A stretch of DNA of 64,000 nt from Arenibacter aquaticus (GTDB lineage Bacteria; Bacteroidota; Bacteroidia; Flavobacteriales; Flavobacteriaceae). Shown piece after piece: positions 20,493 through 47,790 of this stretch. The translations under genes were made by a program, and so were the position numbers. The stretch spans positions 8,060 through 72,059 of the forward strand of contig NZ_RQPJ01000014.1 of NCBI RefSeq assembly GCF_003957295.1. Direction: 5' to 3'. The notes beneath the pieces are model-generated. The model had not been told where the DNA came from, made no database searches, and saw nothing but the letters and a program-made list of their open reading frames with translations. Each line of letters begins with the position of its first letter. The stretch's first letter is position 1.

Positions 20493-22268
20493 TCAGAACT
20501 TTACAGTATACCCACCTTCACTGTATTCCGCGCTGTTCTTTATGATTATTTTTTGATCAAGATCTTCATAATCCCAAAATTTACCCCTTTCTAAAATTTC
20601 GCCGTCCAAATAGATTTCCTTTGGACTTATTTTAGAGTGTACTCTAAGTATATGCGGAATTTTGGTTCCACGCAAAGAAAGTTTACACCCATAATTGGTC
20701 TTTAGATAGGATATATTGGTTTTCCCTGCTCCATCTGTGTGATAGTAAACAAAGCTATTTTTATTCTTAGGGTACACTAAAATAGTGACAAACCCTTCTG
20801 AATTGGCATCACCAAAACCAGTATAGGCACGTTTAATCCTTAAAGGCACAATTGCACCGTCCTTGACAAATACCGGGAATTCGTCCATAGGGAATTCCCT
20901 ATCCACTACAACTCCCCCTTCCAGCAATTCCCTATCTGCAAAAAAGTACCTCCAATTCCCCTTTGGCAGGGAAACACTTCGTTTCTTAGAATCCATATAG
21001 ATGGGGGCCACCAAAAAATCATCACCAAACATATAGTGGTATTTACCCTCTTTCAGAGGTGTCTGCAATCTTCTTCCTCCTTTATTGGCCATTACAACAT
21101 AGTGGTACATATAGGGCACCAATTCTGTATGCAGCCATGAGAATTTGCGTATCACTTGCAACTCCTCCTTACTCCTTTTCCACAATCGCCTTTCCCCATG
21201 TCCGCCATTCATAAAAAGACCACAAAAAGTAGAGAACTGCGCCCACCTTATATATAAACGGGGAGGAATGGTCTTTCCAGAAAATCCAGCGATATCGGAA
21301 CCTATAATATTATACCCCAGATCTGCACTTTTTAGGATACTCTCAATGGCCGACTCAAACCCTTGAATTCCATCCAAAGCAATATCTACTTTTTCATCCT
21401 GGCTTTCAGATATCATTTCATCCGTCACCCATTTGTGCTCTTGATCGCCCACCCAACTAACAGGAGAGGCGTCAATGGGCGAAAATCCTTCTGGATGAAA
21501 ACTGCGATCTATTGACCGGGATAGCGTAACAAACTCCGGGTTTTGTCCAAGTCCATGTAAATATTCGTCCCTATAATAATGATCCATGTAGGTTCTGGTA
21601 GACATTAGTCCTTTGGAGGCACTTTTATAAAAAAATGGAATACCCCCCAATTTACTCCAAAATAGTGTTGCTGTTCCGTCCAATTTCCAACCATCAACCC
21701 CCAAATCAAAAACATTCTGTTGCATTCCCCGCCACCATTCCATAGCTTCCTTACTGGTGTAATCTATAAAACCGCCTCTACCCTTCCACCATTTGTTGGG
21801 ACTATCCGATTGTACCAAAAAACCATTACCCATAGCCTGGTTAAACCAATCTTCCGAATCTTTAATTTTTGTATCCTTGCTAGCACTGTTCACCATGGAG
21901 GTCATCCATAGCACCACCCTGTATTCATTATCCTGTAGTTTTTTAAACCACTTATAGGGTTGTTTATAAAGACTGGTGTCTATTTGAAAATCATTATAGC
22001 GCAAAGACCATGGACTATCTATGAGTATCGTACGCACCGGAATATCATGCTTTTTGTAGCCCTCCAGCAACTCATCCACATAATCGGAAGTATTAACATC
22101 ATCTTCCCAAAGCCAACATTCCAAAGCCCATGACGGGGTCAAAGGTGGGTTACCATGTCGCTGTTTGTTAAAAGGCATGCCCCACACCGGAAGAATCCAA
22201 TAAAAATAGGTTATTACACCTAATAATAGCAGTACCGCAACACTTATAAGTACCCCTTTTCTTTTCAT
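20493..22268 (-). CDS. Membrane-anchored glycoside hydrolase family 31
   Basis: 591 residues. A single N-terminal membrane helix (about 6-28) anchors a TIM-barrel GH31 domain, so the enzyme acts in the periplasm or on the outer membrane. The catalytic nucleophile is probably Asp197 in DGWKLDGT, and the acid/base Asp275 in SWVGDQEH. The conserved GSDIAGF block is at 323-329 and a beta-sandwich tail follows. GH31 covers alpha-glucosidases, alpha-xylosidases, sulfoquinovosidases and alpha-galactosidases; the substrate cannot be fixed by eye. It overlaps the preceding PHP gene by four bases (ATGA), so the two are translationally coupled. Confidence 0.85.
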   Translation of the reverse strand: MKRKGVLISVAVLLLLGVITYFYWILPVWGMPFNKQRHGNPPLTPSWALECWLWEDDVNTSDYVDELLEGYKKHDIPVRTILIDSPWSLRYNDFQIDTSLYKQPYKWFKKLQDNEYRVVLWMTSMVNSASKDTKIKDSEDWFNQAMGNGFLVQSDSPNKWWKGRGGFIDYTSKEAMEWWRGMQQNVFDLGVDGWKLDGTATLFWSKLGGIPFFYKSASKGLMSTRTYMDHYYRDEYLHGLGQNPEFVTLSRSIDRSFHPEGFSPIDASPVSWVGDQEHKWVTDEMISESQDEKVDIALDGIQGFESAIESILKSADLGYNIIGSDIAGFSGKTIPPRLYIRWAQFSTFCGLFMNGGHGERRLWKRSKEELQVIRKFSWLHTELVPYMYHYVVMANKGGRRLQTPLKEGKYHYMFGDDFLVAPIYMDSKKRSVSLPKGNWRYFFADRELLEGGVVVDREFPMDEFPVFVKDGAIVPLRIKRAYTGFGDANSEGFVTILVYPKNKNSFVYYHTDGAGKTNISYLKTNYGCKLSLRGTKIPHILRVHSKISPKEIYLDGEILERGKFWDYEDLDQKIIIKNSAEYSEGGYTVKF

Positions 22269-23692
22269 TTTTTAACTTTTCTAAAGAAGCGTATATACAT
22301 AACAAAAAGTGAATAGCCCATAAAGACACTACCAATGATCAATAGCAGGGAACTATATTCTAAAAAGAGATCACTATATCCCTTTACCGCATTGGCACGG
22401 ACCCAATAATAAAACCCCAATGCAACCAAAAACAAGGCACTTAACAACCCTGCTATGGCGATTTTTTTACGCATGGGAACAAAATATCTCCTTCTAAAAT
22501 TCCACAACAATTGAACCAGTATTAACCAAAAAAACCAAGACAGAACCTGATACAAATTAAGGGTCCTAAAGTAATTTATCAATGTTATAAACGGACTAAA
22601 TACAAGATTTGAACTATCATAATATGGCCGGTCATTATACATCAATACCTTTACTTTATCCTGATCCCTTGCCCGAAGCACCTCAAGAATAGCATTCTCC
22701 CTTGAAACAAGATCCATTTTATCCCAATTAGGTATGGTAAAGGCGTTCCAAATGGCACAGGCACGACCATATCCATGGAAATCCAACCCTCCTACCATAA
22801 GTAGGTTGTGGTCCTCGCAATACTCCTTTAGTTCGCGGAACAACTCTCGATCATAATATAACTCCTTGCCTACATTTTCTATTTCAAAGCCATCTACCCC
22901 AAGGTCTTTATAGAACTCTTTTGCCTTACCTTTTCCATCAAACCAATGATTTACCAGCACTGCACCTCCATATTTATGCACCAAGTTTACTATCACGGAA
23001 TCAGGTTTGCCCTTGGTTTCAAATGTACCCTTGAGTCCCAAAAGACTCATATGGTTAGATCCTGAATGCTCCTGACCTACCAAAATCAAGGGTTCTGGAG
23101 GCAACTCCCTTCTTCTTTGCCTCTGCGAAAATTCCAAAGTCTTGGCATAGTTGGCGTGATCTGTTATGAAAAAGGCATCAAAACCATTTCTCCTATGCCA
23201 TTGCCACATTTTTTCCTGGGACATTAAGCCGTCATGACTAAACTCGGTATGGGCATGGGTAGTAACCAACACCTCGTTGTCCGTATTATTAACAATGGTA
23301 TTATTGGGCAATGGAAGAAAGAGAATAACCACAAAAATGGCGAAACAAATACCAATCAACAAAGGCAGGTTACCTAAAAACAATAAGACCCTCCTACTTC
23401 TCTGCCCATCAGAAATAGTGCTACGTACCTTATAAAGACCATACAGTACATAAAATGTCACTATCCATCCTAGGGCAATGGGTAATTCCTGTAATGGGTA
23501 AAGGGAGCGGTTCAAATACAATAACACTCCCAACACAGGTTCAAAAATGACTCTAACAATAGATATCTGTACCCCGTAGCCGGGAACAGACTCCAAGGTG
23601 AGGGCATTAATTATATGTACTGGATATTGAAATATAGTCGCTAAGATTGCGATTACCGCTAAAGGAAGCACAACAATATATTTTTTAACCAT
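22265..23692 (-). CDS. Integral membrane protein with PHP phosphoesterase domain
   Basis: 475 residues: four membrane segments in the first 130 residues, a PHP metallo-hydrolase domain at about 140-365, then three more membrane segments. Metal-site motifs are THAHTEFSHDG (His146, His148, His153), ITDHANY near 176, and later HWFDG and GGLDFHG. The arrangement resembles CehA/McbA-like PHP hydrolases but embedded between membrane bundles, which is uncommon. Coupled by a four-base overlap to the GH31 gene. It may act on phosphorylated or lipid-linked sugars at the membrane; this is inference. Confidence 0.78.
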   Translation of the reverse strand: MVKKYIVVLPLAVIAILATIFQYPVHIINALTLESVPGYGVQISIVRVIFEPVLGVLLYLNRSLYPLQELPIALGWIVTFYVLYGLYKVRSTISDGQRSRRVLLFLGNLPLLIGICFAIFVVILFLPLPNNTIVNNTDNEVLVTTHAHTEFSHDGLMSQEKMWQWHRRNGFDAFFITDHANYAKTLEFSQRQRRRELPPEPLILVGQEHSGSNHMSLLGLKGTFETKGKPDSVIVNLVHKYGGAVLVNHWFDGKGKAKEFYKDLGVDGFEIENVGKELYYDRELFRELKEYCEDHNLLMVGGLDFHGYGRACAIWNAFTIPNWDKMDLVSRENAILEVLRARDQDKVKVLMYNDRPYYDSSNLVFSPFITLINYFRTLNLYQVLSWFFWLILVQLLWNFRRRYFVPMRKKIAIAGLLSALFLVALGFYYWVRANAVKGYSDLFLEYSSLLLIIGSVFMGYSLFVMYIRFFRKVKK

Positions 23693-23928: not shown

Positions 23929-24852
23929 CTAATGTGCGGACTTATATTCGTTCTTATAGTTAAACTGCTCAATATGCTCCTTTATCTGGGACTGCTTGTC
24001 TTCACTAAACCGGGACAGTGGCTCAGCGCTATAATCTTGACAAATACCCATGGCCATCAATGCAGATTTAATACCCTTAATATGTCTAGATGAATATTGC
24101 CCTACTTCATAAATAGTGCTATGCACTTTTAAAACCTTATCTCGCAGCAATTTAACTTCTTCCAAGTCGTTACGCAATGCTGCATCGTATAAGTCTACAA
24201 ACAATCGCGGGAAAAAGTTGGCACCCCCCGCCACTGCTCCATGCCCGCCATACATAATAGTCTCTGGCAAAAACAGTTCGGCCCCTGCAATAACGGAAAA
24301 CAGGGGATCTCCCTTAAATTCCTCGATCAATTGGTACAAATAACTTAAGTCACCGGAACTATCCTTAATCCCTATGGCTCCTAATTTCTTGGCTTTTATT
24401 ACCACGTCTAAAGATAAATGGAGTTTGGTACAACTTGGCATATTGTACAGCATAAAAGGCAAGGACAAGGCTGGCACTACCCTTTCCAGATAGTCGCCCA
24501 TTTCCTTTTGTGAAATAGGTAAATAATAAGGCGGAGCCACCACTAGCGCATCGGCGCCAGCACTTTTTGCATGGTTGGCAATTTTCAAAGTACCCGTTTC
24601 AGAGGTATCGGTAACACCCACCAAGACCGGAACTCTACCAGCTACTATCTGGCAAGTTGCCGTAATAAGCTCTTTACGCACCTTATAGCTTAAACTAGGG
24701 CCTTCCCCCGTGGTTCCCAAGATAAAAATCCCATGCACCCCGCCACCGATCAAATGTTTCAGCAATTTTTCCAAACCTAGATGGTCCAATTCCTTATTTT
24801 CCAATAATGGGGTAATCATGGGCGGTATAATTCCTTTTAACGGTAGTTTCAT
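23929..24852 (-). CDS. DHDPS/N-acetylneuraminate lyase family aldolase
   Basis: 307 residues, a (beta/alpha)8 class I aldolase. The Schiff-base lysine is Lys163 in GAIGIKDSSG, the proton-relay Tyr136 is in LYNMPSCT, and the substrate carboxylate loop is GTTGEG (46-51). Members cleave or form 2-keto acids: NanA splits sialic acid, KDG aldolases act on uronate products, DapA makes dihydrodipicolinate. The setting beside an AraC-type regulator and a catabolic locus favours a catabolic lyase over lysine biosynthesis. It is cytoplasmic, with no signal. Confidence 0.85.
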   Translation of the reverse strand: MKLPLKGIIPPMITPLLENKELDHLGLEKLLKHLIGGGVHGIFILGTTGEGPSLSYKVRKELITATCQIVAGRVPVLVGVTDTSETGTLKIANHAKSAGADALVVAPPYYLPISQKEMGDYLERVVPALSLPFMLYNMPSCTKLHLSLDVVIKAKKLGAIGIKDSSGDLSYLYQLIEEFKGDPLFSVIAGAELFLPETIMYGGHGAVAGGANFFPRLFVDLYDAALRNDLEEVKLLRDKVLKVHSTIYEVGQYSSRHIKGIKSALMAMGICQDYSAEPLSRFSEDKQSQIKEHIEQFNYKNEYKSAH

Positions 24853-25135
24853 CTTTGCCTATTATTTAGATTAATATTCATAAGACCTACCCCAAAAGAC
24901 ATAGTAGTGTAATTATGGACTTCATAAATGTTGGTTTTAAGGGTTGGTTAATTAACTTATGTGGCGCCAATAAATATACTATTGGACAACATGAAATATT
25001 TGAGTAGCTGCTCTAACAAATTAAACCCAATTAAAAATTCCCTACCACTATAATATTGTTTTAATTACATTATATTTTAACCTTATTTCCTAATAAATTA
25101 ATTATATTAGTCCAAGATTGTCAATATAACAACTT
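24853..25135. promoter_or_regulatory. Divergent control region of aldolase and AraC genes
   Basis: 283 AT-rich bases between divergently transcribed genes. The clearest element is the perfect 10-bp palindrome GTTAATTAAC at 24947-24956. I find no exact TAnnTTTG box for either gene. Confidence 0.45.
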
Positions 25136-25984
25136 ATGGAATTTATTTTTGAAAAGATATTTGTCCCCAACAAGCATTCGTTTATATCTAGAAAACTACC
25201 CTTGGCCTCCGATGCCAGAATTCATTCCCACAAAAATTTTGAGTTGAATTTCATCACCTCGGGATCGGGTAGGAGAATAGTTGGGGACAACATCTCTGGT
25301 TTTGACACGGGGGATCTGGTCTTATTGGGTCCCAATTTGCCACATTGTTGGGAAGCCTTGGATTATGACAATGGTATGGACCCCTTTTGCATTGTCACCC
25401 ATTTTTCCGAGGACATTATAAATTCTGATTTTTTTAAAATGCCTGAATTGGAGAAAGTGGTAGATTTATTGAAGCAGTCCAGTACAGGGCTCCGCTTTAA
25501 ATTGGGAGATGACAGGCACATTAGAAAATGTCTGGAAAAGATGACTCAATTACAGGGCTTGGAATACTATATAGAAATGCTAAAGATCTTCAATTTTCTC
25601 CTTCAAATTGAAGACAGGGAAAATTTGTCCAATCCGCACAACAATTCAGCCGTATTCGCTAAAAATTTGGACAAAATAAACAAGGTGTACGAATATGTTT
25701 TTCAAAACATACAGGAAGGTGTAAAACTAGAGGAAGCCGCTGCTGTATTGAATATGGCCCCCAGTTCATTTTGTCGATATTTCAAGAAAAAAACCAAACT
25801 CACTTTTATGGAGTATGTAAAAAGTGTAAGAGTGGGCATAGCTGCCAAATTACTGGCAGAAACCGATAAGCAGATAACCCAAATTTGCTTTGAGAGCGGC
25901 TATAACAACCTTGCTAACTTTAACCATTACTTTAAACATATTATGGGCAAGACACCTTCGGAATACAGAAAGACCTTTAGGTAG
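25136..25984 (+). CDS. AraC-family transcriptional regulator
   Basis: 282 residues: an N-terminal cupin-like effector domain (HSHKNFELNFITSGSG, then GDLVLLGPNLPHCW) and a C-terminal double helix-turn-helix from about 190. The HTH is seen as VKLEEAAAVLNMAPSSFCRY and ITQICFESGYNNLANFNHYF, with the family signature continuing KTPSEYRKTF. The cupin suggests it senses a small sugar-like ligand. Divergent from the aldolase gene, it is the likely local regulator of this locus. It converges with the next minus-strand gene, overlapping by 8 bp. Confidence 0.92.
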   Translation: MEFIFEKIFVPNKHSFISRKLPLASDARIHSHKNFELNFITSGSGRRIVGDNISGFDTGDLVLLGPNLPHCWEALDYDNGMDPFCIVTHFSEDIINSDFFKMPELEKVVDLLKQSSTGLRFKLGDDRHIRKCLEKMTQLQGLEYYIEMLKIFNFLLQIEDRENLSNPHNNSAVFAKNLDKINKVYEYVFQNIQEGVKLEEAAAVLNMAPSSFCRYFKKKTKLTFMEYVKSVRVGIAAKLLAETDKQITQICFESGYNNLANFNHYFKHIMGKTPSEYRKTFR

Positions 25985-26654
25985 CTTTAGGATTGGCTAC
26001 AGCGGGCTGTTTACCTCTCCCCAATCCATTTGCAAAGAATCCCAAAAGAACCACAACAAACGAAATTAAACTTATTGGAGGCAGTCTGCCTTGCCATTTA
26101 GAAGGGGTAAACCAACCGCTGTATCCCATAAAAAAAAGATGCACCCCCATCATAAATAGCAGCCCAAGCAAAAAAGTTTTTGACGTAATAATCTTGATCA
26201 ACACCTCTTTCCCCTTGGTACGGTTTCCAAAACACCAATGATATAGCCCTAAAACCATAAAGCTGCCCATACCCGCTAGCAAACTAAAGTTGCCTATAAC
26301 TGAAAGACTGTTATCCCCAGCAAAAAATTTTGGATAATATTGGGGATTGAATATCAAAAAGCTAAGTAGAACATGAAAAATGGTCAACAGCAATCCCACT
26401 ATCCCCATAATCTTTCTACTTTCCTTGCCCAAATTTAAATTGGCAATCCCCAAATTGTTTATAGGCCTAATAGAAAAACTAAGGGTAAGTAAAATGACGC
26501 CTGCCAAGGAAACTCCTTTATTAAAAATAAATATTGGCAAATCTTTCCAAGGTACGGTTCCCACCACATTATATCTAAGAATTGCATAACCAATTGATGT
26601 TATCAGTATTGGCCATATAATCTTAATGCACATTCTCTTTTCGCTGCCGCTCAT
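25977..26654 (-). CDS. Six-helix membrane protein, function unknown
   Basis: 225 residues with about six hydrophobic helices. Helices three, four and five each carry a His (TIFHVLLSF, GLYHWCF, GVHLFFMGY), a layout reminiscent of cytochrome b/ferric-reductase-like membrane domains, but I cannot confirm haem binding. It is the last gene of the minus-strand SusCD operon, 17 bp after another membrane protein. Its 3' end overlaps the AraC gene by 8 bp on the opposite strand. Confidence 0.75.
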   Translation of the reverse strand: MSGSEKRMCIKIIWPILITSIGYAILRYNVVGTVPWKDLPIFIFNKGVSLAGVILLTLSFSIRPINNLGIANLNLGKESRKIMGIVGLLLTIFHVLLSFLIFNPQYYPKFFAGDNSLSVIGNFSLLAGMGSFMVLGLYHWCFGNRTKGKEVLIKIITSKTFLLGLLFMMGVHLFFMGYSGWFTPSKWQGRLPPISLISFVVVLLGFFANGLGRGKQPAVANPKAT

Positions 26655-26671: not shown

Positions 26672-27943
26672 TTAACCTATAGGAAATCTATTTCTATCAC
26701 CCATGTCGCCATGTACATTTATAGCTATCACCGCCCAAATGGCGATTACCAAAAGTACAATGATTAAGTAAAAAAGCCATTTTTTTAGGTCTATCTTATC
26801 AACTTCTCCAAATGAAAAGTGGAATCTCTTGGATCGTATCAAGACCAAGATCATTAATATATTCAGAACATAAAGATGATGGTTAAGATGCATTTCTCCC
26901 CCAAAAATCCCGGTTACAGCATAGCTCATAAAGGTATATGCTATGAACATGGTAAAAAATGTAACCAAAACATCCTTTTGCGAGAATTCTTGTTTTTTGA
27001 ATTTCCAAAAGATAGATACGACCATTACCAACAAAACCAATAATACCATTAAAGTGCTTGTAGAGGCAACGGATTCTATATTTGGCAAACTCTCCAAACG
27101 TCTGGCAATATGGGCAGAAGTCAATGATTCCCTGTAAACGATCAATGGAATAAAGAGTACCACTATCAACAGGGCAGACCAATTTTCCCATTTTTTGGCA
27201 CTAGGAATTTCTTTTGGCCATTTGGAACTAAAAACCCCATAGGCCATACCCCATCCACCAAAGAAACCAATACTGTATTCCATAATGTTCCACGTATTGA
27301 ACGGAATGTGCCAGGTATTGCCCAAAACGTGTAAAAAATTACCAAAACTAAAACCAATACCCCCGCCCAGCATGGCATAAAAAGCTACACGGATGGCAGA
27401 ATTCCTTTTTTCCCTGGCCATATACCATAACATGGCCAAGCCGGCCCCCAAACAAACTGCCCAGGCTTCGGACCGCGGGGGCGTCATTTTAAAACCGATC
27501 TGCTCTATTAGAAAATAGTAACTTATAAGCCCACCTACGGCCATCTCAGACAACAAAGCGCCCCATCTCACTTTGTTTTCCTTGGTAGAATCCAAGGTAA
27601 GTCCTACTAGTCCACCTCCCAAAAGCCCAAACAAACCGCCAATAACAAACAACATTGCCAGTCCATAGTAAGCATTGATAAAATTATCGGCAAAGCCATA
27701 GCCCACTACCTTTCCATAACTTATCATCCCTCCGGCACCCCATCCAACAGCCGATGCCAGGGCAATCAGCATCATTTTATTGTACCAGTCTTTTCTTCCC
27801 GAAACCAATACTAGTGCCAAGCCTCCAATAGCTCCGGCCCAAGCTGCTCCCTGTTCATGCCCAAATTGCCCCCGGATCGCCCAAGCGGTTGCTAGAGCCA
27901 TGGCTACGATTAACAATTGTTTCCCCATATTAGTAGATTTCAT
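26672..27943 (-). CDS. Polytopic membrane protein, function unknown
   Basis: 423 residues with roughly eleven or twelve membrane segments and many Gly-rich helices (AWAGAIGGLALVLVSG, GLFGLLGGGLVGL, MLGGGIGFSFGNFLHVLG). The start MKSTNMGKQLLIVAMALATAWAIRG has no cleavable signal. Residues Arg, His and Glu lie near the first helix (RGQFGHEQGA). I do not recognise the family; it could be a transporter or a membrane-embedded enzyme. It follows the phosphoesterase gene by 14 bp and precedes the other membrane gene by 17 bp, so all three are probably co-transcribed. Confidence 0.78.
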   Translation of the reverse strand: MKSTNMGKQLLIVAMALATAWAIRGQFGHEQGAAWAGAIGGLALVLVSGRKDWYNKMMLIALASAVGWGAGGMISYGKVVGYGFADNFINAYYGLAMLFVIGGLFGLLGGGLVGLTLDSTKENKVRWGALLSEMAVGGLISYYFLIEQIGFKMTPPRSEAWAVCLGAGLAMLWYMAREKRNSAIRVAFYAMLGGGIGFSFGNFLHVLGNTWHIPFNTWNIMEYSIGFFGGWGMAYGVFSSKWPKEIPSAKKWENWSALLIVVLFIPLIVYRESLTSAHIARRLESLPNIESVASTSTLMVLLVLLVMVVSIFWKFKKQEFSQKDVLVTFFTMFIAYTFMSYAVTGIFGGEMHLNHHLYVLNILMILVLIRSKRFHFSFGEVDKIDLKKWLFYLIIVLLVIAIWAVIAINVHGDMGDRNRFPIG

Positions 27944-27957: not shown

Positions 27958-29079
27958 TTATTTCCTTCTTTTTATCTCAATGGTCTCTATCTCGTTGCCA
28001 TTTATATCCGTCACATATAGGAAGGCATTTTTCTTGTTTATCTGTACATTGACAAAATGTTCTATTTTACTGGATTTTTTGGTTTCAGGAAGTTCTACCT
28101 CAATATCGTATAGTGGGGCCCCAGCTCCAGCCGAGGTTATATAATGTACTCCGTTCTTGGTGGCCCTGTGATAATGATGGTCGTGTCCGTTTAAAAAGAC
28201 CTGTACCTTATGCCTTTCAAAAATATCACCCCAAAATTTTCGGGTTTCCTCGGCCTCGGCCATCCTATTTTTCATGGCACTATATAGCGGTTTATGCTGA
28301 AAAATAAAGACAAAGCCGGCTTCTTTATTTAATTCCAAAACCTGCTCCAGCCATTTCTTCTGGGTAGTAAAATATTCGGAGAAGGCATCTCTCCAAAAGG
28401 CATCACTATTTTTATCCGAAACAAATTCTGGTTGCGAAATTTGTTTGCCCTCGCTGTCTAAAACAATAAATAGGGCATCGCCAACCGTGAAGTAATAGTA
28501 TTTTTCATTGTTGGGCAGGTCAAATAAGTCGTAATAGTAGGGAGAATCCTTTTCATGATTACCCAAAACAGGATAATATGGGGTATTCTTCATGAATTCC
28601 TTGTTTACCTCAAAAAAGGCTTCCCAATCACTAATAGACCGACCATTGGCTACCAAATCGCCCGAATTAATGATAAACCTTGGGTTGGTTTCCATAATCT
28701 TGGCCACTATTTTAGCGTGTACATCGTGTCTATTTCTAGAATCACCGGTCACGGCAAAATTAAAGGGTATAGCCTCGTCCGGGTAGGTGGTCAGGGTGCC
28801 TTTGCCCTCATCACTACCGTCATTAAGCACGTCATAGTTGTAAGTAGTATTGGGCTCCAATTCTCCCAAATGTATCTTATGGTGTTTATACTCCCCTATG
28901 GTTTTAACATTCCCCTCTTGATCGGTGATGGTAGGTGTACTTTCCAAGGTAGACCAGCATATGGTAGCATCCTTGGTTCCCATTTGCTGAATATAAGGTC
29001 CGAAGGCAATTTTTTGCTTTTCTTGTGCTACAACAATAGCAGTGGTACTTAAGAGTAATAAAAACAGTAATTTCTGCAT
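27958..29079 (-). CDS. Secreted calcineurin-like metallophosphoesterase
   Basis: 373 residues. A signal peptide (ending IVVAQ) leads into a short fibronectin-like N-terminal part (ATICWSTLESTPTI, then LGELEPNTTYNYDV) and a metallophosphatase core, the layout of purple acid phosphatase-like enzymes. Metal motifs are TGDSRNR, NSGDLVANG, LGNHEKD and NGHDHHYH. It probably removes phosphate from a sugar or lipid headgroup in the periplasm. Its position, 160 bp after SusD and with two membrane genes tightly downstream, ties it to the glycan locus. Confidence 0.88.
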   Translation of the reverse strand: MQKLLFLLLLSTTAIVVAQEKQKIAFGPYIQQMGTKDATICWSTLESTPTITDQEGNVKTIGEYKHHKIHLGELEPNTTYNYDVLNDGSDEGKGTLTTYPDEAIPFNFAVTGDSRNRHDVHAKIVAKIMETNPRFIINSGDLVANGRSISDWEAFFEVNKEFMKNTPYYPVLGNHEKDSPYYYDLFDLPNNEKYYYFTVGDALFIVLDSEGKQISQPEFVSDKNSDAFWRDAFSEYFTTQKKWLEQVLELNKEAGFVFIFQHKPLYSAMKNRMAEAEETRKFWGDIFERHKVQVFLNGHDHHYHRATKNGVHYITSAGAGAPLYDIEVELPETKKSSKIEHFVNVQINKKNAFLYVTDINGNEIETIEIKRRK

Positions 29080-35316: not shown

Positions 35317-35534
35317 AAATTATAGCTTTAAGTTAGTTTATGAAGCCCCAAGATCATAAATAATTGCTATCCCATCTATTGGTTCCAAATAGGATAACAA
35401 TGAGTTAACAATATGTTAATATTTTAACCATACAGCTTCAATTCATCCAAAAATATATTTAAAAAAATCAATTCTATTCAGGTATTTTATTAATTATGCA
35501 TTATAATTTAACCCTCGATTTAACTTTTTAATTA

Positions 35535-40491: not shown

Positions 40492-41382
40492 ATGGATTCT
40501 ACTGCTGGAATAATTCTTGCCATATCCCTGATCATTATTATGTTCGGGATGGGCCTTTCCCTAACCTTGACCGATTTCAAAAGAGTGGTCACTTATCCAA
40601 AGGCTATGATTATAGGCCTAATTTGTCAACTATTACTACTCCCGCTAATTGGATATGTAATTGCTATCACCCTATCCCTCTCGCCTACAACGGCAATAGG
40701 AATTATGTTATTGGCCGCCTGTCCAGGAGGACCTACATCCAATATGCTTACCTATATGGCCAAAGGGGATTTGGCGCTATCCGTTTCGCTCACTGCCGTC
40801 TCCAGTATGACATCTATTCTAAGCATACCATTTATAGTACAATTTGCCTTGGCAGAATTTTCCAATCAGAATATGGCCATAACAGTAGATGCCCTCACCA
40901 TGATAAAACAATTATTGGTCATCGTAATTATCCCCGTGGCCATAGGAATGTTCATAAAAGCCAAGTATGAATTTTTCGCCCTAAAAATGGAGAAACCCGT
41001 TAAGATTGCCTCGGCTATAATATTTATTTTGGTAATTATAGGGGTAACCATTAGCATTAAGGATGTGTTTTTAAGCTATTTGTCCGAAGCCGGGCTTCCT
41101 GCCATTTTACTTAATATAAGTACCATGACCATAGGGTTTATGGCCGCTGTTTTATTTAAGCTAACAAGACCCCAAGCTATTAGTATATCTATAGAAACCG
41201 GAATACAAAACGGCACCTTGGCCATTACCTTGGCCACAATAGCCTTGAACAATGCGGAATATTCCATTGTACCCGCCATTTATGGTCTTTTAATGTTTGT
41301 TACCGCTACAGTAATCATTTTTGTTAGAAAGCCTTTGGGTGTAAAAGATCAATTAAGCGTGGAAAAAGATTCTCCCCAATAA
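40492..41382 (+). CDS. Bile acid:sodium symporter (BASS) family transporter
   Basis: 296 residues, eight to nine membrane helices. Hallmark blocks are MLLAACPGGPTSNMLTYMAKGD and SIETGIQNGTLAITLA, which line the sodium and substrate sites. BASS proteins take up organic anions such as bile acids, pyruvate or keto acids with Na+. In this setting it would import an acidic product of the locus, powered by the sodium gradient that NQR builds. A 216-bp gap precedes it, so it may have its own promoter; the MFS gene follows after 15 bp. Confidence 0.88.
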   Translation: MDSTAGIILAISLIIIMFGMGLSLTLTDFKRVVTYPKAMIIGLICQLLLLPLIGYVIAITLSLSPTTAIGIMLLAACPGGPTSNMLTYMAKGDLALSVSLTAVSSMTSILSIPFIVQFALAEFSNQNMAITVDALTMIKQLLVIVIIPVAIGMFIKAKYEFFALKMEKPVKIASAIIFILVIIGVTISIKDVFLSYLSEAGLPAILLNISTMTIGFMAAVLFKLTRPQAISISIETGIQNGTLAITLATIALNNAEYSIVPAIYGLLMFVTATVIIFVRKPLGVKDQLSVEKDSPQ

Positions 41383-41397: not shown

Positions 41398-42678
41398 ATG
41401 AGAAAGAATCATCTAATAGTAGCACTTATCTTATTTATTTTCTTTGTCATTTCCTTCCTGACCAACATTCTGGGTCCCTTAATTCCGGATATTATAACCG
41501 ACTTTGAGGTAAGCCTAACCATGGCGGCCTTATTACCTTTTGCCTTTTTTCTGGCTTACGGTGTTTTTTCCGTTCCTTCAGGCATGGCAGTTGAAACCTA
41601 TGGTGAAAAAACAGCCATACTATTGGCCTTCTCAATATCCTTTTTAGGGGCCATTTTATTTTCCTTATACCCCAATTTTCCTATAGCTTTAATTTCTCTT
41701 TTTTTAATAGGTTCCGGTATGGCCATGTTGCAGGTGGCCATAAATCCACTTCTTAGGGTAGCGGGTGGGGAGGAGCACTTTGCCTTTAATTCAGTTTTGG
41801 GACAGTTGGCCTTTGGGTCGGCCTCTTTTTTTAGTCCTATCCTATTTTCATATCTGGTACTAAACTTGGAAGATTATTCTGCTACGGAAAACACCAATCC
41901 TATCATAGAGCTATTTCACCATATTGTGCCCCCACAACTGCCATGGGTATCCTTATACTGGATCTTTGCCTTTATCTCCTTACTAATGCTCTTGTTGATT
42001 TTTCCCATTAGGCTACCAAAAGTTACGCGCAAAGAAGATGAAAAAACAGGATCTTGGGCCACAAACATAAGCCTCCTAAAAAACAAAAAGGTTATCCTTT
42101 ATTTTATTGCCCTTTTCGCCTATGTAGGTACGGAACAGGGGGTTGCAAATTGGATGTCAAAATTCCTGTCCGAATACCATGGCTTGGACCCTAGGGTTGA
42201 AGGAGCCAAGGCTATATCCCTATTCTGGGGCCTCTTAACAGTTGGATGCATTCTAGGCCTTGTATTATTAAAATTCCTGGATAGTAAATTGGTACTTAAA
42301 ATTTTCACTGGGGCAGCCATCACAAGTTTAACCGTTGCACTTTTTGGTTCTGCCAAAATGGCTATTTGGGCATTTCCCATGGTTGGTTTCTTTGCCTCTG
42401 TGATGTGGTCCATTATTTTTTCATTGGCCTTAAACTCCGTTCAGGAAAACCACGGAGCCCTCTCCGGAATCCTCTGTTCCGGTATAGTTGGAGGGGCTAT
42501 TGTTCCCTTAATTGTTGGTGCCATTGGCGACTTGGCAGGGCTAAAAGGAGGGATGATTTTTTTGTACCTGACCTTAGGATTTATCTTCAGCATCGGTTTT
42601 TGGGCCAAGCCATTGGTGAACAACAAAACAGTTACGTTTAAAGAATTATTGGGACGGGGAAAACCAACAGAAACATAA
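41398..42678 (+). CDS. MFS sugar transporter (FucP-like)
   Basis: 426 residues, twelve membrane helices. The N-terminus (NILGPLIPDIITDFEVSL, then FFLAYGVFSVPSGM) matches the fucose/glucose/hexosamine permease branch, which imports monosaccharides with protons. LIGSGMAMLQVAINPLLR and the GTEQGVANWMSKF block are further family marks. It is likely to carry the sugar released by the locus into the cytoplasm. Twelve bases separate it from the next hydrolase gene. Confidence 0.88.
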   Translation: MRKNHLIVALILFIFFVISFLTNILGPLIPDIITDFEVSLTMAALLPFAFFLAYGVFSVPSGMAVETYGEKTAILLAFSISFLGAILFSLYPNFPIALISLFLIGSGMAMLQVAINPLLRVAGGEEHFAFNSVLGQLAFGSASFFSPILFSYLVLNLEDYSATENTNPIIELFHHIVPPQLPWVSLYWIFAFISLLMLLLIFPIRLPKVTRKEDEKTGSWATNISLLKNKKVILYFIALFAYVGTEQGVANWMSKFLSEYHGLDPRVEGAKAISLFWGLLTVGCILGLVLLKFLDSKLVLKIFTGAAITSLTVALFGSAKMAIWAFPMVGFFASVMWSIIFSLALNSVQENHGALSGILCSGIVGGAIVPLIVGAIGDLAGLKGGMIFLYLTLGFIFSIGFWAKPLVNNKTVTFKELLGRGKPTET

Positions 42679-42689
42679 ATAAACCAGCT

Positions 42690-43643
42690 ATGAGAGCCTT
42701 TCTATATTTATGGGTAATTTTATTGTTTGTCGGCTGCAAGGCCAAACAGTATGATGTATCCATACCTCCCAAAGGCTATTCCAGCAATACTACACTAAAA
42801 ATTGCCTATGCCACTGGCTCATTAAAACTCATTGAAAATGACTATCCCCTGCCAGCAAACATAACAGAACACAAGGACCTGGTATATAAATCGGTTGATA
42901 GTCTTGCACTAAAATTGAGTTTATATCATTCCAAGGACATTAAAAAAAATGCACCCTTACTGATTTTTGTTCACGGTGGAGCATGGAAAAAAGGAAAAAA
43001 AGAAGACTATTGGCACTATCTGATCAGTTATGCCCAAAAAGGGTATATTACGGCTACAGTCCAATACAGGTTAAGCGGGCAGGCCAAATACCCCGCCCAG
43101 CTACAAGATGTGGACGATGCTATTGTTTATCTGAAACAGCAGGCATCCAAATACCATATCAACAAGCATAAGATTGCCTTGATCGGCGGTTCTGCAGGTG
43201 CACATTTGGTCATGATGAGTGCCTATACCAACAGTCATAAGATCCTGAACAACAACCAAGAATCGGCTCAGGTGCAGGCAGTGGTCAATATCTACGGGCC
43301 TTCTGACCTTACTACAGAAAAAGCTATTAATGACGCCTCTGTAAAATCACTGTTCGGAAAAACCTATACGGAAGCGCCTGACTTGTACAAAAACGCCTCC
43401 CCCATATTCCAAGTTTCGGAAAAAGCCCCTCCCACCCTTAGCTTTCACGGCACTTTGGACGAACTCGTACCTGTAGAGCAGTCGGATAGGCTACATCAAA
43501 AGCTAATGGACATAGGGGTGCCTACCCAATACCATAAACTAAAAGGGTGGCCACATACTATGGACATAGCTGTTAAAGTAAATGAATACTGTCAGTTTCA
43601 CATGGACCGGTTTTTTGAAAAATATATTCCCAAAACCCCATAA
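42690..43643 (+). CDS. Alpha/beta hydrolase lipoprotein (carboxylesterase, BD-FAE-like)
   Basis: 317 residues; lipobox LLFVGC near residue 14. Motifs: oxyanion FVHGGAWKKG, nucleophile ALIGGSAGAHL, acid HGTLDELVPVEQ, base KGWPHTMD. These match the alpha/beta_hydrolase_3 / BD-FAE group, often acetyl- or feruloyl-esterases in glycan loci. A likely job is removal of O-acyl groups from the imported glycan in the periplasm; this is inferred from family and place. Confidence 0.87.
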   Translation: MRAFLYLWVILLFVGCKAKQYDVSIPPKGYSSNTTLKIAYATGSLKLIENDYPLPANITEHKDLVYKSVDSLALKLSLYHSKDIKKNAPLLIFVHGGAWKKGKKEDYWHYLISYAQKGYITATVQYRLSGQAKYPAQLQDVDDAIVYLKQQASKYHINKHKIALIGGSAGAHLVMMSAYTNSHKILNNNQESAQVQAVVNIYGPSDLTTEKAINDASVKSLFGKTYTEAPDLYKNASPIFQVSEKAPPTLSFHGTLDELVPVEQSDRLHQKLMDIGVPTQYHKLKGWPHTMDIAVKVNEYCQFHMDRFFEKYIPKTP

Positions 43644-43724: not shown

Positions 43725-44804
43725 ATGAAGTCATTGCTATTATTTTGTTCCCTGATCATCGTATCTTGTAAAGGAAAAATGGAGAATTTACCCGAAGTAA
43801 TTCCCCTGGAACATCCGGCCATTCTGGAACAGGAATTTATCTATGAATTAGAGGACGCCCTTACTCCGGAATGCCATGCCTCTACAGTGGAGGTTAGCAA
43901 TGGGGTTGTCATTGCTTCCTGGTTTGGTGGAACAGAGGAAAAAAATGACGATGTGGGCATTTGGGTAGCACGAAAAACAGCTGGTTCCTGGTCTACTCCC
44001 ACCGAGGTGGCCAATGGAGTACAAAAAGATGGAACGCGCTACCCAAGTTGGAACCCCGTACTATTTAAACCAAAAGACGGACCATTATTTTTATTTTACA
44101 AGGTAGGCCCCAATCCACAGGAGTGGTGGGGATTGTACATGACCTCCACCGATGATGGTAAAACATGGTCCGACCCGGTAGAACTACCTGATGGTATTCT
44201 TGGCCCTATCAAGAATCAACCTATACAATTGGCCAATGGGGAAATAATTTCTCCTTCCAGTACCGAAGACGATACGGACGGATGGAGAATTCACCTGGAG
44301 TTTAGTTCGGACAATGGAAAAACGTGGTCTAAATCTGCCGCACTTAACGACGGCAAGGAATTTGGCGCCATACAACCGGTGGTCTTAAACTATGGAAACG
44401 GAAAATTACAGCTATTGAGCCGGACCGAGAATGAAGTGATCTCCGAGAACTGGTCTGCGGATTACGGCAAGACATGGAGTGCTATGCAGGCCATCTCCCT
44501 TCCCAACCCAAATTCTGGTATAGACGGGGTATCCTTGCAAGATGGAAGACAATTATTGGTCTATAATCCCACAGGAAAAAATTGGGGAGATAGGGTGCCA
44601 TTAAGCCTTGCCTTGTCCAATGATGGCAAAAACTGGAAAAGGGTATTGGACTTGGAGCCTTTGAGGGAAAATACCGACAAGAAAGGGGAGGAGTACTCCT
44701 ACCCTACTATGATACAAGCGGCAGATGGGAAGGTACACATAGTTTATACCTGGAATAGGAAAACAGTTAAATATATTGTTTTGGATCCACAAAAACTCAA
44801 CTGA
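43725..44804 (+). CDS. BNR-propeller sialidase-like lipoprotein
   Basis: 359 residues; lipobox LIIVSC near residue 14. A BNR_2-type beta-propeller with Asp-box repeats near residues 141-149 (STDDGKTW), 194-202 (SSDNGKTW), 244-252 (SADYGKTW) and 298-304 (SNDGKNW). The segment CHASTVEVSNGVVIASWFGG followed by EEKNDDVGIW is typical of this subfamily. The arginine-bearing RIP motif of classical sialidases is not seen, so calling it an exo-sialidase is not secure; related propellers include polysaccharide lyases. It is 5 bp upstream of the second ceramidase-family gene. Confidence 0.82.
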   Translation: MKSLLLFCSLIIVSCKGKMENLPEVIPLEHPAILEQEFIYELEDALTPECHASTVEVSNGVVIASWFGGTEEKNDDVGIWVARKTAGSWSTPTEVANGVQKDGTRYPSWNPVLFKPKDGPLFLFYKVGPNPQEWWGLYMTSTDDGKTWSDPVELPDGILGPIKNQPIQLANGEIISPSSTEDDTDGWRIHLEFSSDNGKTWSKSAALNDGKEFGAIQPVVLNYGNGKLQLLSRTENEVISENWSADYGKTWSAMQAISLPNPNSGIDGVSLQDGRQLLVYNPTGKNWGDRVPLSLALSNDGKNWKRVLDLEPLRENTDKKGEEYSYPTMIQAADGKVHIVYTWNRKTVKYIVLDPQKLN

Positions 44805-44809
44805 TAATA

Positions 44810-46213
44810 ATGAAAGGTAGATGGTTAAAAATATTTCTTAAAACGCTAGGAGGGCTTATTGTTCTCCTAGTCTTATTGTTCTATTTTGCAACCACCCCTA
44901 TAGATACCACTCCCTATTTTGAAACCCAATACTATAGGAATACCATTCAAAATATTAATGAAGCCGTTAAAAATAGGACAGAGGTCCAAGGATCTTTGTT
45001 TGCCGGTTTTGCCAAAACAAACATCACGCCACAAGTAACCAATAGTGTTGCAGATCCCAATCAGGACCTGTTCACCAATATTAAATTGGCAGGATATGGC
45101 GATGGAAAAATTGCAACTGGCGTTCATGACTCTATCTATGCAAAAGCCATCGCACTCAGTATTAACAACGAGTCCGTTGTTTTGATCAGCGCGGATCTAG
45201 TAGCCATACCGGAGGAAATTGTTCTGAATGTTGAAAAAAGATTAAAGGGCAAAATATCGCGTAATCAACTCTATTTTGGCGCCACCCACACCCACGCCAG
45301 TATTGGGAATTGCATGCCAGGGTACGTAGGCAAAAGTTTTGGCGGGGAATACCAAGCAGCCGTAGTGGAGTGGCTGGGTAAAAAAATTTCCGATCTTATT
45401 TTAAAGGCCTTGGCAGATAGGCAACCTGCACAATTGTCATCGGGTTACATTAAGGTCCCCAATTTAGTACGCAATAGGATTATTGGAGAAACTGGCAGAC
45501 TCAATGACAAACTGGATCTTTTATCCATTGTTCAGGAGAACGGGAAAAAAGCCAGCATTGGAGTCTTTTCTGCCCATGCCACGGTTATTGGTCCTGATAA
45601 CGATTTGTATAGCGGGGATTACCCCGGCTATTTTCAACGCTATTTGGAAGATAAGGCTGTAGACATTGCCCTGTTCTTCGCCGGTACGGTAGGGAGCCAT
45701 AGCAATAAAGGTGAGGGCCATAAATTTGACAAGGCCCAATACATTGGGGAAACCCTTGCCGATTCGGCCATTGTTGCATTGAACAAAATGCAGTATTCCT
45801 CAAGGGTGCAACTGAGCGCTATATCCTCTGAAATAGAAGTACCAAAATTACAATTCCTGTATATTTCGGACCGTTTGCGATTAGCTCCCTTTTTAGCAAA
45901 AAAACTAATGCCACCCATGAACCCGATACAGGTACAGGGGCTAAAACTAAACAACCTCATCTGGCTGGCCCTTCCTTATGAATTAAGTGGGGAATACGGC
46001 GTGGATTTAAAAAACGCTTTGGAACTCCAAGGCTACAATTCTGTTCTTAGTAGTTTCAACGGACAATATTTGGGCTATATCACCCCGTCTAAATATTATT
46101 ATTTTGACACCTACGAAGCCCGATTAATGGGCTGGTACGGTCCCACAATGGGGGATTATTTAATGGAACTCAATTATAAAATGGCCAATGCATTAACCCA
46201 TTCCAGACTATAA
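44810..46213 (+). CDS. Ceramidase-family (PF04734) membrane-anchored hydrolase B
   Basis: 467 residues with one N-terminal helix (about 8-28) as anchor. From FAGFAKTNITPQV it follows the ceramidase N-terminal domain: FGATHTHASIGN (zinc ligands), VFSAHATVIG (second His) and SGDYPGYFQRYLE, which parallels the SGDNKGYA block of ceramidases. In place of the GDVSPN serine block stands FFAGTVGSHSNKGEG. It is shorter than classical ceramidases. It follows the propeller gene by 5 bp and precedes a paralogue by 11 bp. Confidence 0.78.
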   Translation: MKGRWLKIFLKTLGGLIVLLVLLFYFATTPIDTTPYFETQYYRNTIQNINEAVKNRTEVQGSLFAGFAKTNITPQVTNSVADPNQDLFTNIKLAGYGDGKIATGVHDSIYAKAIALSINNESVVLISADLVAIPEEIVLNVEKRLKGKISRNQLYFGATHTHASIGNCMPGYVGKSFGGEYQAAVVEWLGKKISDLILKALADRQPAQLSSGYIKVPNLVRNRIIGETGRLNDKLDLLSIVQENGKKASIGVFSAHATVIGPDNDLYSGDYPGYFQRYLEDKAVDIALFFAGTVGSHSNKGEGHKFDKAQYIGETLADSAIVALNKMQYSSRVQLSAISSEIEVPKLQFLYISDRLRLAPFLAKKLMPPMNPIQVQGLKLNNLIWLALPYELSGEYGVDLKNALELQGYNSVLSSFNGQYLGYITPSKYYYFDTYEARLMGWYGPTMGDYLMELNYKMANALTHSRL

Positions 46214-46224
46214 CAGACAAGGCT

Positions 46225-47790
46225 ATGAAAACACTAAAAAAAGGGCTAAAAATATTTGGGTCGATATTCCTCATACTACTGTTGGTAGCTGCAACTATTA
46301 CAGTATATAACTGGCGAGACAGGCATCCCGACTACTCGGTAGATATAAATATAAAAAATAAGACTCCCGGACCTATAAGAGCCGGATTTTCAAAAAAACC
46401 CATAACACCTACTATAGTAGATACCTGGAACGACGCGAACGGGAACAACAAGTATAGCAAGGCCGAAGGGGACACCTACAACGACAACAATAACAACGGA
46501 AAGTTTGATGCCTTTTGGATAGCGGGAATGAGCAATGCCAAGCCTGCTCAGGGCGTACATGACGATGTTTGGTCCAGGGTTATGGTGATAGATGACGGAC
46601 AGAGCAGGATTGCCATGATATCAATGGATGCCATAGGTTTTTTACATAGTGACGTTGTTGACATAAGAAAGCGCATCCCAGCTGACTTGGGAATAGACTA
46701 CACCTTATTATCATCTACCCACACCCATGAAAGCAATGACTTGGTGGGTATTTGGGGCGAAAGCATGTTTAAGTCGGGCGTAAATCCCGACATGATGGAA
46801 TACGTTAAATCGCAAACCGTGGCTGCCATAACGGAAGCAACACAAAATTTACGTCCTGCAAAATTGGTTTTTGCCGAGGACCTTTCCGGAGAAGACGCCA
46901 AGCTTATAAAGGATACCCGCAAACCCATTGTAAAAGCTACTGGAATACATCTTATGCAGGTGTTGGATGCCGAAAAAAATACTACTCTGGGAACCATCAT
47001 AAATTGGGCCAACCACCCAGAGACCCTTTGGTCACAAAACTTATTGATCAGTTCTGATTTCCCCCACTATATAAGAGAAGGCATTGAGAAAGGAATTTTT
47101 AAGGGAAATGAACAAGTCCACGAAGGTCTTGGCGGTGTGGCCATATATTTTTCAGGAGCCATTGGTGGACTAATGGCCCCACATCCTTCCTTACCCATCC
47201 CCGACCCCTTTACCGAGGAAGAATATCTAGAACCTACATTTAAAAAAACCAAGGCATTGGGCGATCAAATTGCTATAATGTCCCTCTCCGCTCTCAAAAA
47301 AGCTAGTGATACCTTGACCCGTTCCAATTTATCCTTAAGAGCTAAAACAATATTGGCTCCATTGGACAATACTACTTTTAAAATTGCCAGTGCTATTGGA
47401 TTGATCAATATAGGGATGCCCCAATATTTTAAATCCCGGACCGAAGTGGGGGCCATACGCATTGGGCCCGCCTTATTCCTTAGTATTCCAGGAGAAATAT
47501 ATCCCGAAATTGTATATGGCGGAATTGAAGCCCCAGTAGGCAGGGAATTTAATATAGAACCCTTAGAAGTCCCTCCCCTTCAAGAGTTTATTAAGGACCA
47601 ATACAAATTTTATTTAGGACTTTCCAATGATGAAATAGGGTATATAATCCCGAAAAGCGAATGGGATACCACCAAACCATACCTATACAACGATGAAAGG
47701 GACACCTATGGAGAGCAAAACTCCTTGGGCCCCGATACAGGTCCTATAATCTATAAGTCATTGGTAGAGGTTATACAGGATTTAAACTAG
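46225..47790 (+). CDS. Ceramidase-family (PF04734) membrane-anchored hydrolase C
   Basis: 521 residues, N-terminal membrane helix (about 11-28). The ceramidase-type core shows STHTHESNDLVG, NWANHPETLW and SSDFPHYIREGIE; the presumed active-serine region reads YFSGAIGGLMAPHP. Between the first strand and the metal loop there is an Asp/Asn-rich insert (WNDANGNNKYSKAEGD, then NDNNNNGKFDAFW) resembling a calcium-binding loop; the other two copies lack it. Last gene of the plus-strand arm; no clear terminator follows. Confidence 0.78.
   Translation: MKTLKKGLKIFGSIFLILLLVAATITVYNWRDRHPDYSVDINIKNKTPGPIRAGFSKKPITPTIVDTWNDANGNNKYSKAEGDTYNDNNNNGKFDAFWIAGMSNAKPAQGVHDDVWSRVMVIDDGQSRIAMISMDAIGFLHSDVVDIRKRIPADLGIDYTLLSSTHTHESNDLVGIWGESMFKSGVNPDMMEYVKSQTVAAITEATQNLRPAKLVFAEDLSGEDAKLIKDTRKPIVKATGIHLMQVLDAEKNTTLGTIINWANHPETLWSQNLLISSDFPHYIREGIEKGIFKGNEQVHEGLGGVAIYFSGAIGGLMAPHPSLPIPDPFTEEEYLEPTFKKTKALGDQIAIMSLSALKKASDTLTRSNLSLRAKTILAPLDNTTFKIASAIGLINIGMPQYFKSRTEVGAIRIGPALFLSIPGEIYPEIVYGGIEAPVGREFNIEPLEVPPLQEFIKDQYKFYLGLSNDEIGYIIPKSEWDTTKPYLYNDERDTYGEQNSLGPDTGPIIYKSLVEVIQDLN

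Follow-up and report, generated by a model that had tools for sequence, protein, structure and literature searches.

A 27-kb stretch of Arenibacter aquaticus DNA (positions 20493-47790 of the 64,000 nucleotides analysed here, henceforth the window) carries 20 genes in two arms, and we tentatively read it as a locus of the polysaccharide utilization locus (PUL) type, served by one AraC regulator and directed at an O-/N-acylated glycan containing a 3-deoxy-2-ulosonic acid, for which Kdo (3-deoxy-D-manno-octulosonic acid) is the likeliest candidate. The arms diverge between the gene of a PKD-domain surface lipoprotein (34363-35316, minus strand; PF18911) and a PF04734 gene (35620-36915, plus strand), and the AraC gene (25136-25984) is the sole plus-strand gene inside the minus arm. 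SusC adjoins SusD, together with degradative genes and a regulator in a conserved order, as in PULs. We are led to Kdo by an aldolase that occurs in relatives with a SiaT-like symporter and, in some lineages, with FucI and a pentulose kinase, as Kdo catabolism needs; the catalytic activities, the identity of the sugar and the polymer are what we infer from this gene content.

In the proposed pathway, the PKD protein, SusD and SusC would bind and import oligosaccharides, the envelope esterases (AXE1, BD-FAE and PqaA) with the YdjC and PF04734 hydrolases would remove acyl groups, the phosphoesterase and the PHP protein would remove phosphate, and GH31 (GH92 and GH2 in relatives) would trim neutral sugars. 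The sialidase-fold propeller would then free the ulosonic acid for uptake by a carboxylate symporter (an SSS protein in relatives, perhaps BASS or MFS in the window), and the aldolase, of the dihydrodipicolinate synthase (DHDPS) type, would split the acid into pyruvate and D-arabinose. FucI and ribulokinase, encoded at another site of the same genome, would pass the D-arabinose to the pentose-phosphate pathway.

Protein families of the locus were assigned with Pfam and TIGRFAM-type models and their curated cut-offs. Comparisons were made in a family sample of 149 genomes and a phylum sample of 395 Bacteroidota genomes, the window's genome being counted in both, and around named loci centred on the BNR propeller, the best 80 of 242 propeller loci. 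The stretches taken around propellers reach to 10 kb or to the end of the contig, and counts of joined genes are thus lower bounds; related genomes in the promoter counts are non-independent. Labelled loci of relatives or of the own genome bear L numbers, genomes bear G numbers, and C4, C5, C9 and C17 are sites of the A. aquaticus genome.

The aldolase (23929-24852, minus strand; PF00701, 192.8 bits; nearest Protein Data Bank entry 4xky) belongs to the DHDPS superfamily. Its best curated model was DapA (TIGR00674), with a score below the cut-off, and NanA scored lower still. By alignment, the aldolases of the own genome fell into three kinds, a DapA type, NanA and the locus type, and locus aldolases shared the signature YN[MI]PSCTK / AGGAN. 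The DapA-type gene at C17 carries YNVPGRTG where the locus aldolase carries YNMPSCTK, and the arginine after YNVPxR, which we take to have its particular role in DapA, was not present in the locus enzyme. Missing likewise were the GSTYN-type block and the G[FYPV]DE sugar-binding block, the latter described in part of a published account as defining N-acetylneuraminate lyases (PMC4016182). By its signature we regard the locus aldolase as neither DapA nor NanA, and it is our candidate for a Kdo aldolase. In the aldolase tree, the window type (25) and a second type (8) formed an exclusive group whose node had a support of 0.47, against 0.335 for the window type by itself, and the grouping therefore rests on identity and signature. 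Paralogues in the own genome were 65% identical (C5, before a Gfo/Idh/MocA-type gene) and 44% identical (C4, near 548 kb). The protein of 4xky, presumably from Bacteroides thetaiotaomicron, carries the signature YNMPTHTK / GPEE / NGGAN common to the FucI-linked aldolases; it is annotated as DHDPS, yet the DapA arginine is absent from the aligned stretch. With such a signature, it is possibly misnamed as a 'dihydrodipicolinate synthase'.

Two canonical NanA genes, carrying both GFDE and GSTYN, are located elsewhere in the genome, at C9 and C4, near AGE epimerases. These sites are likely the genome's real sialic-acid loci. The corresponding labelled loci (L148-L150) hold NanA, AGE epimerase and 873-residue proteins with an SSS part. 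When the initial annotation called the locus aldolase NanA-like, the superfamily was right and the NanA signature was not there. A true sialic acid (Neu5Ac) locus could point to the SiaT-like symporter of relatives, the BNR propeller and an aldolase of the same superfamily. We nevertheless hold it to be very improbable and rejected it: residues differ, canonical NanA genes and AGE epimerases stand at C9 and C4, and none of the 20 locus genes matched an epimerase or ManNAc kinase family by Pfam/TIGR assignment.

The SSS symporter that comes after the aldolase in relatives has SiaT as its closest relative of known structure (233 bits; the next scored 126). In SiaT, Ser60, Thr63 and Arg135 bind the Neu5Ac carboxylate while Gln82 and Thr58 contact other hydroxyls, according to a part of the structural report (PMC5931594). 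In the 14 closest loci (70-100% identity), Ser60 and Arg135 were kept, Thr63 was replaced by Ser, Gln82 by Ala and Thr58 by Tyr. The Ser and Arg were also kept in seven aldolase-linked symporters of L163-L172 and in the sialate-type fusions of L149/L150, so that these two residues point to an acidic substrate in general rather than to Kdo specifically. In 11 loci the symporter is GH2-linked and had neither Ser60 nor Arg135. The nearest relative of this symporter in the own genome is 41% identical and located at C4.

What favours Kdo over other ulosonic acids is the isomerase and the kinase. Ribulokinase and FucI fit the conversion of D-arabinose to D-ribulose and on to ribulose phosphate, and D-arabinose is, with pyruvate, the product of Kdo aldol cleavage. 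Sialate lyases catalyse the reverse reaction in vitro, joining D-arabinose and pyruvate to Kdo (PMC4016182). FucI was searched for in 42 of the genomes behind the 80 propeller loci; it was found in 24, with ribulokinase next door for 17 of the 24 FucI genes (a match of 23% identity in L111 was left out of the counts). In Sediminicola luteus (L043/L044), the two-armed locus itself includes ribulokinase and FucI, which stand between the gene of a 423-residue membrane protein and SusD. In L084 they follow PF04734-C, in L075 ribulokinase is at the locus with FucI starting just past the end of the stretch, and in L064 and L096 FucI alone stands beside the locus. L093 may have the two genes ~5 kb past its end, provided that the contig numbering corresponds. 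The own genome encodes FucI and ribulokinase at 523-527 kb of C4, beside a propeller 50% identical to that of the locus. Among the 395 Bacteroidota genomes, 12 held the aldolase group, 16 held FucI and five held both (Fisher p 4e-5, a value inflated by four of the five belonging to one genus). In those four, aldolase and FucI share a contig at distances of 4.5, 4.7, 6.8 and 22 kb, and in three the aldolase, the symporter, further open reading frames, a pentulose kinase and FucI all run in one direction. Between symporter and kinase, L165 has one propeller and L164 one further gene and a propeller. The kinase of these loci is a TIGR01315 pentulose kinase and not of the AraB type, and thus two kinase families fill the step. 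L-fucose as a product was disfavoured, the kinases being of ribulokinase or pentulose-kinase types.

The BNR_2 propeller lipoprotein (43725-44804, plus strand; PF13088, 301 bits) is our candidate for a Kdo or other ulosonate glycosidase. Its AlphaFold model (predicted local distance difference test, pLDDT, 80.8) matched mostly sialidases among the best 50 of 738 Foldseek matches with E <= 0.001 (E 4e-15, template modelling score ~0.7), and has the sialidase fold of family GH33. In the alignment with NanI, whose residue numbers we give as we assume them to be, Arg555 corresponds to R233 and is kept, and Glu539 corresponds to Q217; by spacing from NanI positions, we take Asp291 to be D76, Arg615 to be R290, Tyr655 to be Y326 and Arg266 to be H51. 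All six residues (H51, D76, Q217, R233, R290 and Y326) were conserved at 97-100% in 80 sequences. The likeness to GH33 is thus one of fold, whereas the site of three arginines and a Tyr/Glu pair is incomplete: His appears to replace the first Arg (an assignment made by spacing) and Gln the Glu partner of the Tyr. We consider the protein a sialidase-fold enzyme with an altered site and a putative glycosidase. The GH33 activity list, in the part of it given in PMC9120202, includes a Kdo hydrolase; that enzyme has the sialidase fold in common with the window's propeller, for which the activity is proposed.

The conserved His had suggested a lyase of the PL42/GH145/PL24 type, which is unlikely since the listed Foldseek matches are mostly sialidases. 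Sialidases are six-bladed. FoRham1 and its relatives are seven-bladed, with one essential and one supporting His, as described in part of PMC8377490. Sialidase-fold propellers with other specificities do exist, and profile matches of the window's propeller include one, the beta-L-arabinobiosidase 5mqr. The locus might then be an ordinary one for an O-acetylated algal polysaccharide, in which the aldolase and the propeller (the latter GH93-like and specific for arabinan, for instance) act on neutral sugars and a ulosonic acid plays no part, an explanation that suits the several esterases and the marine flavobacterial hosts. The repeated coupling of the propeller to the aldolase and to a symporter that keeps the carboxylate residues argues otherwise, and we find such a locus rather unlikely.

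The two-armed locus recurs, with the loss of some genes, in Arenibacter, Zobellia, Maribacter, Pseudozobellia, Sediminicola and others. Apart from losses, the genes in common keep their order in G011, G018, G135 and G080, and in G129 they are spread over two sites, so that the gene set is no chance assembly. In relatives the minus arm comprises PKD-SusC-SusD followed by aldolase, PHP, GH31, the 423-residue protein and AraC in variable completeness, and the plus arm PF04734-A, PqaA, AXE1, YdjC, BASS, propeller, PF04734-B and PF04734-C. Within the stretches examined, G011 is without AXE1, BASS, PHP and GH31; in G080, PF04734-C is missing from the stretch and the 423-residue protein is reduced to a remnant. 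The initial annotation, for which an unconserved gene order would have spoken against a single locus, is borne out here: one locus with two arms agrees with both the conserved order and the shared operator-like sites described below. Its division of labour, one arm for capture and dephosphorylation and the other for degradation and import, does not fit several relatives, in which aldolases, symporter and an oxidoreductase are placed in the SusCD arm.

Within the 80 loci, the propeller was accompanied by PF04734-B in at least 34, PF04734-C in 32, YdjC in 31, PqaA in 28, AXE1 in 25, and PF04734-A and BASS in 23 each; PKD adjoined plus-arm genes in at least 18, and GH92 and GH2 occurred in 13 and 12. 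In named Arenibacter species, propellers of the first locus were 81-88% identical (best segment) to the window's. Relatives of PF04734-A of any kind were found in 9 of the 149 family genomes and close full-length ones (71-100%) in four, the window's genome included in each count; that of G080 is a 56-residue remnant. As the 423-residue protein was found in six of the 149 family genomes (one as a 42-residue remnant) and in three of the 395 phylum genomes, the locus is rare.

Ten of the 80 loci (L066, L068, L069, L072, L079, L090, L092, L094, L098 and L114) contained in their stretch a minimal unit of symporter, aldolase, AraC and propeller without the rest of the set. The symporter was seen in nine of them, the contig of L098 stopping before its position. 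With this as the smallest recurring unit, the core is smaller than the locus. Propeller, aldolase and symporter also stand in a row in another family (L170 and L172, one genus). In Maribellus and Draconibacterium (L117 and L123), AraC, aldolase, symporter, propeller and YdjC are adjoined by rhamnosidase-type (GH78) and HpaI-type genes and, in L123 only, by a GH28 rhamnogalacturonidase-like protein, all three with matches below curated cut-offs. L112 (Flavilitoribacter) and L157 (G305) retain propeller, YdjC and the 423-residue protein, and G332 has the 423-residue protein with no propeller match in ~39 kb around it.

The regulator (PF12833), 74-80% identical in compared relatives, likely serves both arms. 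A motif search in 21 promoter regions gave one 18-base word, from which we built a matrix with nine AraC-side sites of other genomes (13 less the four weakest, L039, L041, L046 and L117). Its two best hits in the window lie in the two divergent promoters: 25066-25083 between AraC and aldolase (minus strand, score 23.3) and 35497-35514 between PKD and PF04734-A (minus strand, score 16.1); the third scored 12.6. The maxima of 20 block-shuffled windows lay between 11.1 and 17.5, so that the first hit is outside chance, while the second, a score reached by four of the 20, is by score within it. Because the training sites were picked in one search together with the promoters of the window and of the PKD side, the scan is not fully independent. 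Since the window's two best sites fall in the divergent promoters of the two arms, these probably form one regulon, and we predict from the shared operator-like sites that both arms are co-induced.

After removal of duplicates, the promoter survey comprised 567 intergenic regions; the 350 that served as background had a 95th percentile of 10.2. This value was exceeded by 12 of 16 PKD/PF04734-A promoters (untrained, the window's included), two of three of the PKD/PqaA form, seven of nine AraC/aldolase promoters outside the training set, nine of 19 BASS promoters plus three of five with another gene opposite, and 11 of 11 of a SusC promoter class that comes mostly from a second propeller locus of Arenibacter. 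High scores were also obtained before FucI in L064 (16.4) and before ribulokinase in L075 (15.5) and L084 (13.5). At C5 of the own genome (L153, position 4354), a site of 23.0 precedes an operon that encodes two aldolases of the DHDPS type beside a Gfo/Idh/MocA-type protein. Given so strong a site upstream, this operon, which includes the 65%-identical aldolase, may belong to the same regulon.

A number of observations weigh against Kdo. The window's locus is itself without an SSS symporter, an isomerase or a kinase, and the C4 pair of FucI and ribulokinase is dispersed from it, ~21 kb from the 44%-identical aldolase and the symporter, with no good operator site at its ribulokinase promoter (L151, 6.8). 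Operator scores were low, too, at the FucI promoters of L096 (5.7) and L166 (8.6), and to these must be added the joint origin of the training sites and the chance-level score of the second site. FucI was not found in 18 of the 42 holder genomes, namely nine of nine with the minimal unit and nine of the 33 others (L062, L063, L070, L074, L076, L082, L083, L087 and L112). Where aldolase and FucI are linked, the propellers (L163-L165) are just 24-27% identical to the window's, and L163 has two propellers before the aldolase and, between symporter and kinase, an open reading frame without BLAST match. As His takes the place of the triad's first Arg and Gln that of the Glu paired with Tyr, the propeller's substrate is perhaps no ulosonide. 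The Kdo reading has genuine difficulties in the missing isomerase and in the changed site of the propeller.

The same two points, the modified propeller site and the lack of FucI in 18 genomes, the minimal-unit ones included, would suit an acylated glycan with some other acidic sugar, such as Kdn, Dha, a bacterial nonulosonate, or an unsaturated or keto uronate from a lyase-like propeller. The aldolase would then act on that acid, and FucI and the kinase on a separate sugar (L-fucose or L-galactose) of the same glycan; the GH78-, GH28- and HpaI-type genes of L123 likewise allow other deoxy-keto acids. However, the kinases beside FucI are AraB-type ribulokinases or TIGR01315 proteins, which fit D-ribulose better than L-fuculose, and no fuculose-phosphate aldolase was noticed beside them, no dedicated search having been made. 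Another acid is hence possible, though we lean towards Kdo. In either case the keto-sugar option of the initial annotation has gained, a ulosonic acid being likely, and so has its acylated target, also likely, with the usual lyases and multi-GH content lacking.

The three PF04734 proteins were examined as possible ceramidases. PF04734-A (CerA, 35620-36915, secreted) scored 26.4 bits, below the cut-off of 32.1, and the membrane-anchored CerB (44810-46213) and CerC (46225-47790), all on the plus strand, scored 51.9 and 32.6 bits. A profile built jointly from 11 sequences (three of type A, three of B, three of C and two other relatives) matched the neutral ceramidases 2zws (1e-26) and 4wgk (1e-25); as single sequences, CerB matched ceramidase structures with E 2e-7 and CerC matched none. 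Aligned to 2zws, His160, His162, His256 and Glu391 were invariant in the 11 sequences and Tyr423 nearly so, residues that we take to be the ceramidase metal ligands. The position presumably equivalent to the nucleophilic serine of the Pseudomonas aeruginosa ceramidase is Thr in CerA, Ala in CerC and an unclear Ser in CerB, with an alignment gap adjoining. The proteins are 431-521 residues long, as against 646 and 688 for 2zws and 4wgk. The predicted structure of CerB was too poor for a structure search (pLDDT 58.9). We rejected true ceramidases, the serine being apparently missing in A and C and CerA scoring below the cut-off; CerA-C are best called putative metal-dependent hydrolases. Four relatives have PF04734-C at 68-78% identity, which places it among the better conserved of the locus proteins. 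In most full loci PF04734-B directly follows the propeller and is followed by PF04734-C, so that the two might share a target region on the substrate.

A ganglioside-like or inositol-phosphoceramide-like lipid, attacked by true ceramidases and a sialidase, had been the initial annotation's suggestion. Three PF04734 proteins with metal ligands, the sialidase-fold propeller and the phosphoesterases would go with it. Of the PF04734 scores, in contrast, only one is clearly above the cut-off, A and C seemingly lack the ceramidase serine, the proteins are distant from ceramidases, the aldolase has no sialate-lyase signature, two catalytic residues of the propeller apparently differ from those of sialidases, and no PF04734 genes were seen in the minimal-unit stretches. 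We consider both the sphingolipid and the ganglioside form of this suggestion most improbable. The acyl-removing set might instead scavenge lipopolysaccharide, with a Kdo hydrolase, symporter and aldolase beside PF04734 amidases, esterases and phosphoesterases, the Kdo-lipid A of other bacteria being eaten; PF04734 proteins would cut N-linked acyl groups off glucosamine and the esterases O-linked ones. This would fit the PafA phosphatase and NagX-like acetyltransferase (match below cut-off) of L157 and the GH2 with an exo-glucosaminidase-type immunoglobulin-like domain in L038, and seems to us improbable.

Among the remaining genes, SusC/RagA (30914-34312, TIGR04056, 613.7 bits), the SusD-like lipoprotein (29240-30895, PF12771, 263 bits) and a probably exported calcineurin-like (purple-acid-phosphatase-like) phosphoesterase (27958-29079, PF00149, 60.4 bits) are on the minus strand. 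So are a multi-spanning membrane protein with a partial PHP phosphoesterase domain (22265-23692, PF02811, 32.3 bits), kept in L039, L042, L043 and L046, and a membrane-anchored GH31-family glycosidase with a short N-terminus (20493-22268, PF01055, 134 bits), which adjoins the PHP gene also in L042, where it ends at the border of the stretch, and in L043. On the plus strand, a PqaA-like (PhoPQ_related) alpha/beta hydrolase lipoprotein (36947-38329, PF10142, 356.5 bits), an AXE1-like acyl/acetyl esterase (38316-39233, PF05448 and PF20434) and a YdjC-family sugar deacetylase lipoprotein (39253-40275, PF04794, 197.2 bits) are followed by a BASS-family Na+-coupled organic-anion carrier (40492-41382, PF01758, 134.8 bits; TIGR00841, 213 bits, below cut-off), a GluP/FucP-like MFS sugar transporter (41398-42678, PF07690; TIGR01272, 126 bits, below cut-off) and a BD-FAE-like esterase lipoprotein (42690-43643, PF20434, 201.7 bits). 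Pfam agrees with the families, coordinates and strands first proposed, though the first PF04734 protein is below cut-off. Two minus-arm membrane proteins had not been named: one of 225 residues (25977-26654) without Pfam family, with a 48%-identical orthologue in L041, and the 423-residue protein (26672-27943), without assigned family and with only a sub-threshold Cation_ATPase_C match. The N-terminal stretch of the latter, WAIRGQFGHEQGA, is highly conserved; the protein is almost confined to this locus type and is present too in two distant families (G305 and G332).

The edges of the locus are clear, as the neighbours look like other functions: an Nqr operon, a type IX secretion system plug and GDPD on one flank, and a DnaQ-like exonuclease/GIY-YIG, rhodanese/MBL and a sulfate permease on the other. 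GDPD (19570-20451), just outside, may be a member since it recurs in 15 of 80 related loci. Exonuclease, rhodanese, sulfate permease and a 3-keto-disaccharide hydrolase lie downstream in 12 or 13 Arenibacter loci. The second propeller locus, seen in nine Arenibacter genomes (L101-L109), holds SusCD, another SSS type, GH2, a propeller (62-64%), GDPD, a Gfo/Idh/MocA-type gene, a 214-residue open reading frame and a DegT aminotransferase, for which a catabolic role lacks explanation; genes related to this locus adjoin the two-armed locus in L038 and L047. At its start (1-2887), the window has a long coding stretch of collagen-like Gly-X-Y repeats that possibly begins before it; its G+C is 0.52, and the first 2 kb are strongly skewed in both GC and AT.

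In common with Bacteroidota PULs, the locus has a SusC/SusD pair, surface lipoproteins, envelope hydrolases, a regulator and a transporter; it differs in being rich in esterases and PF04734 proteins, with an AraC regulator, a single GH31 and an aldolase. With bacterial nan loci it shares an aldolase, an SSS symporter (in relatives) and a sialidase-fold hydrolase, for release, import and pyruvate cleavage, whereas the aldolase signature, the residues of the symporter around the sugar tail and the propeller residues differ, and FucI and a pentulose kinase (in some relatives) replace the epimerase and ManNAc kinase. In the open-licence literature searched, 'KDO aldolase' was met as single mentions in PMC4016182 (an engineered L-KDO aldolase) and PMC4412817, without terms of Kdo catabolism, degradation or utilisation alongside; nothing was found on Kdo with rhamnogalacturonan II and aldolase, on PF04734 with Bacteroidetes gene clusters, or on ceramidase Ser274. 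The locus is rare, conserved and apparently co-regulated. If its aldolase and propeller do act on Kdo, genes would be assigned to Kdo breakdown, and bacterial PF04734 proteins unlike true ceramidases would gain a testable role.

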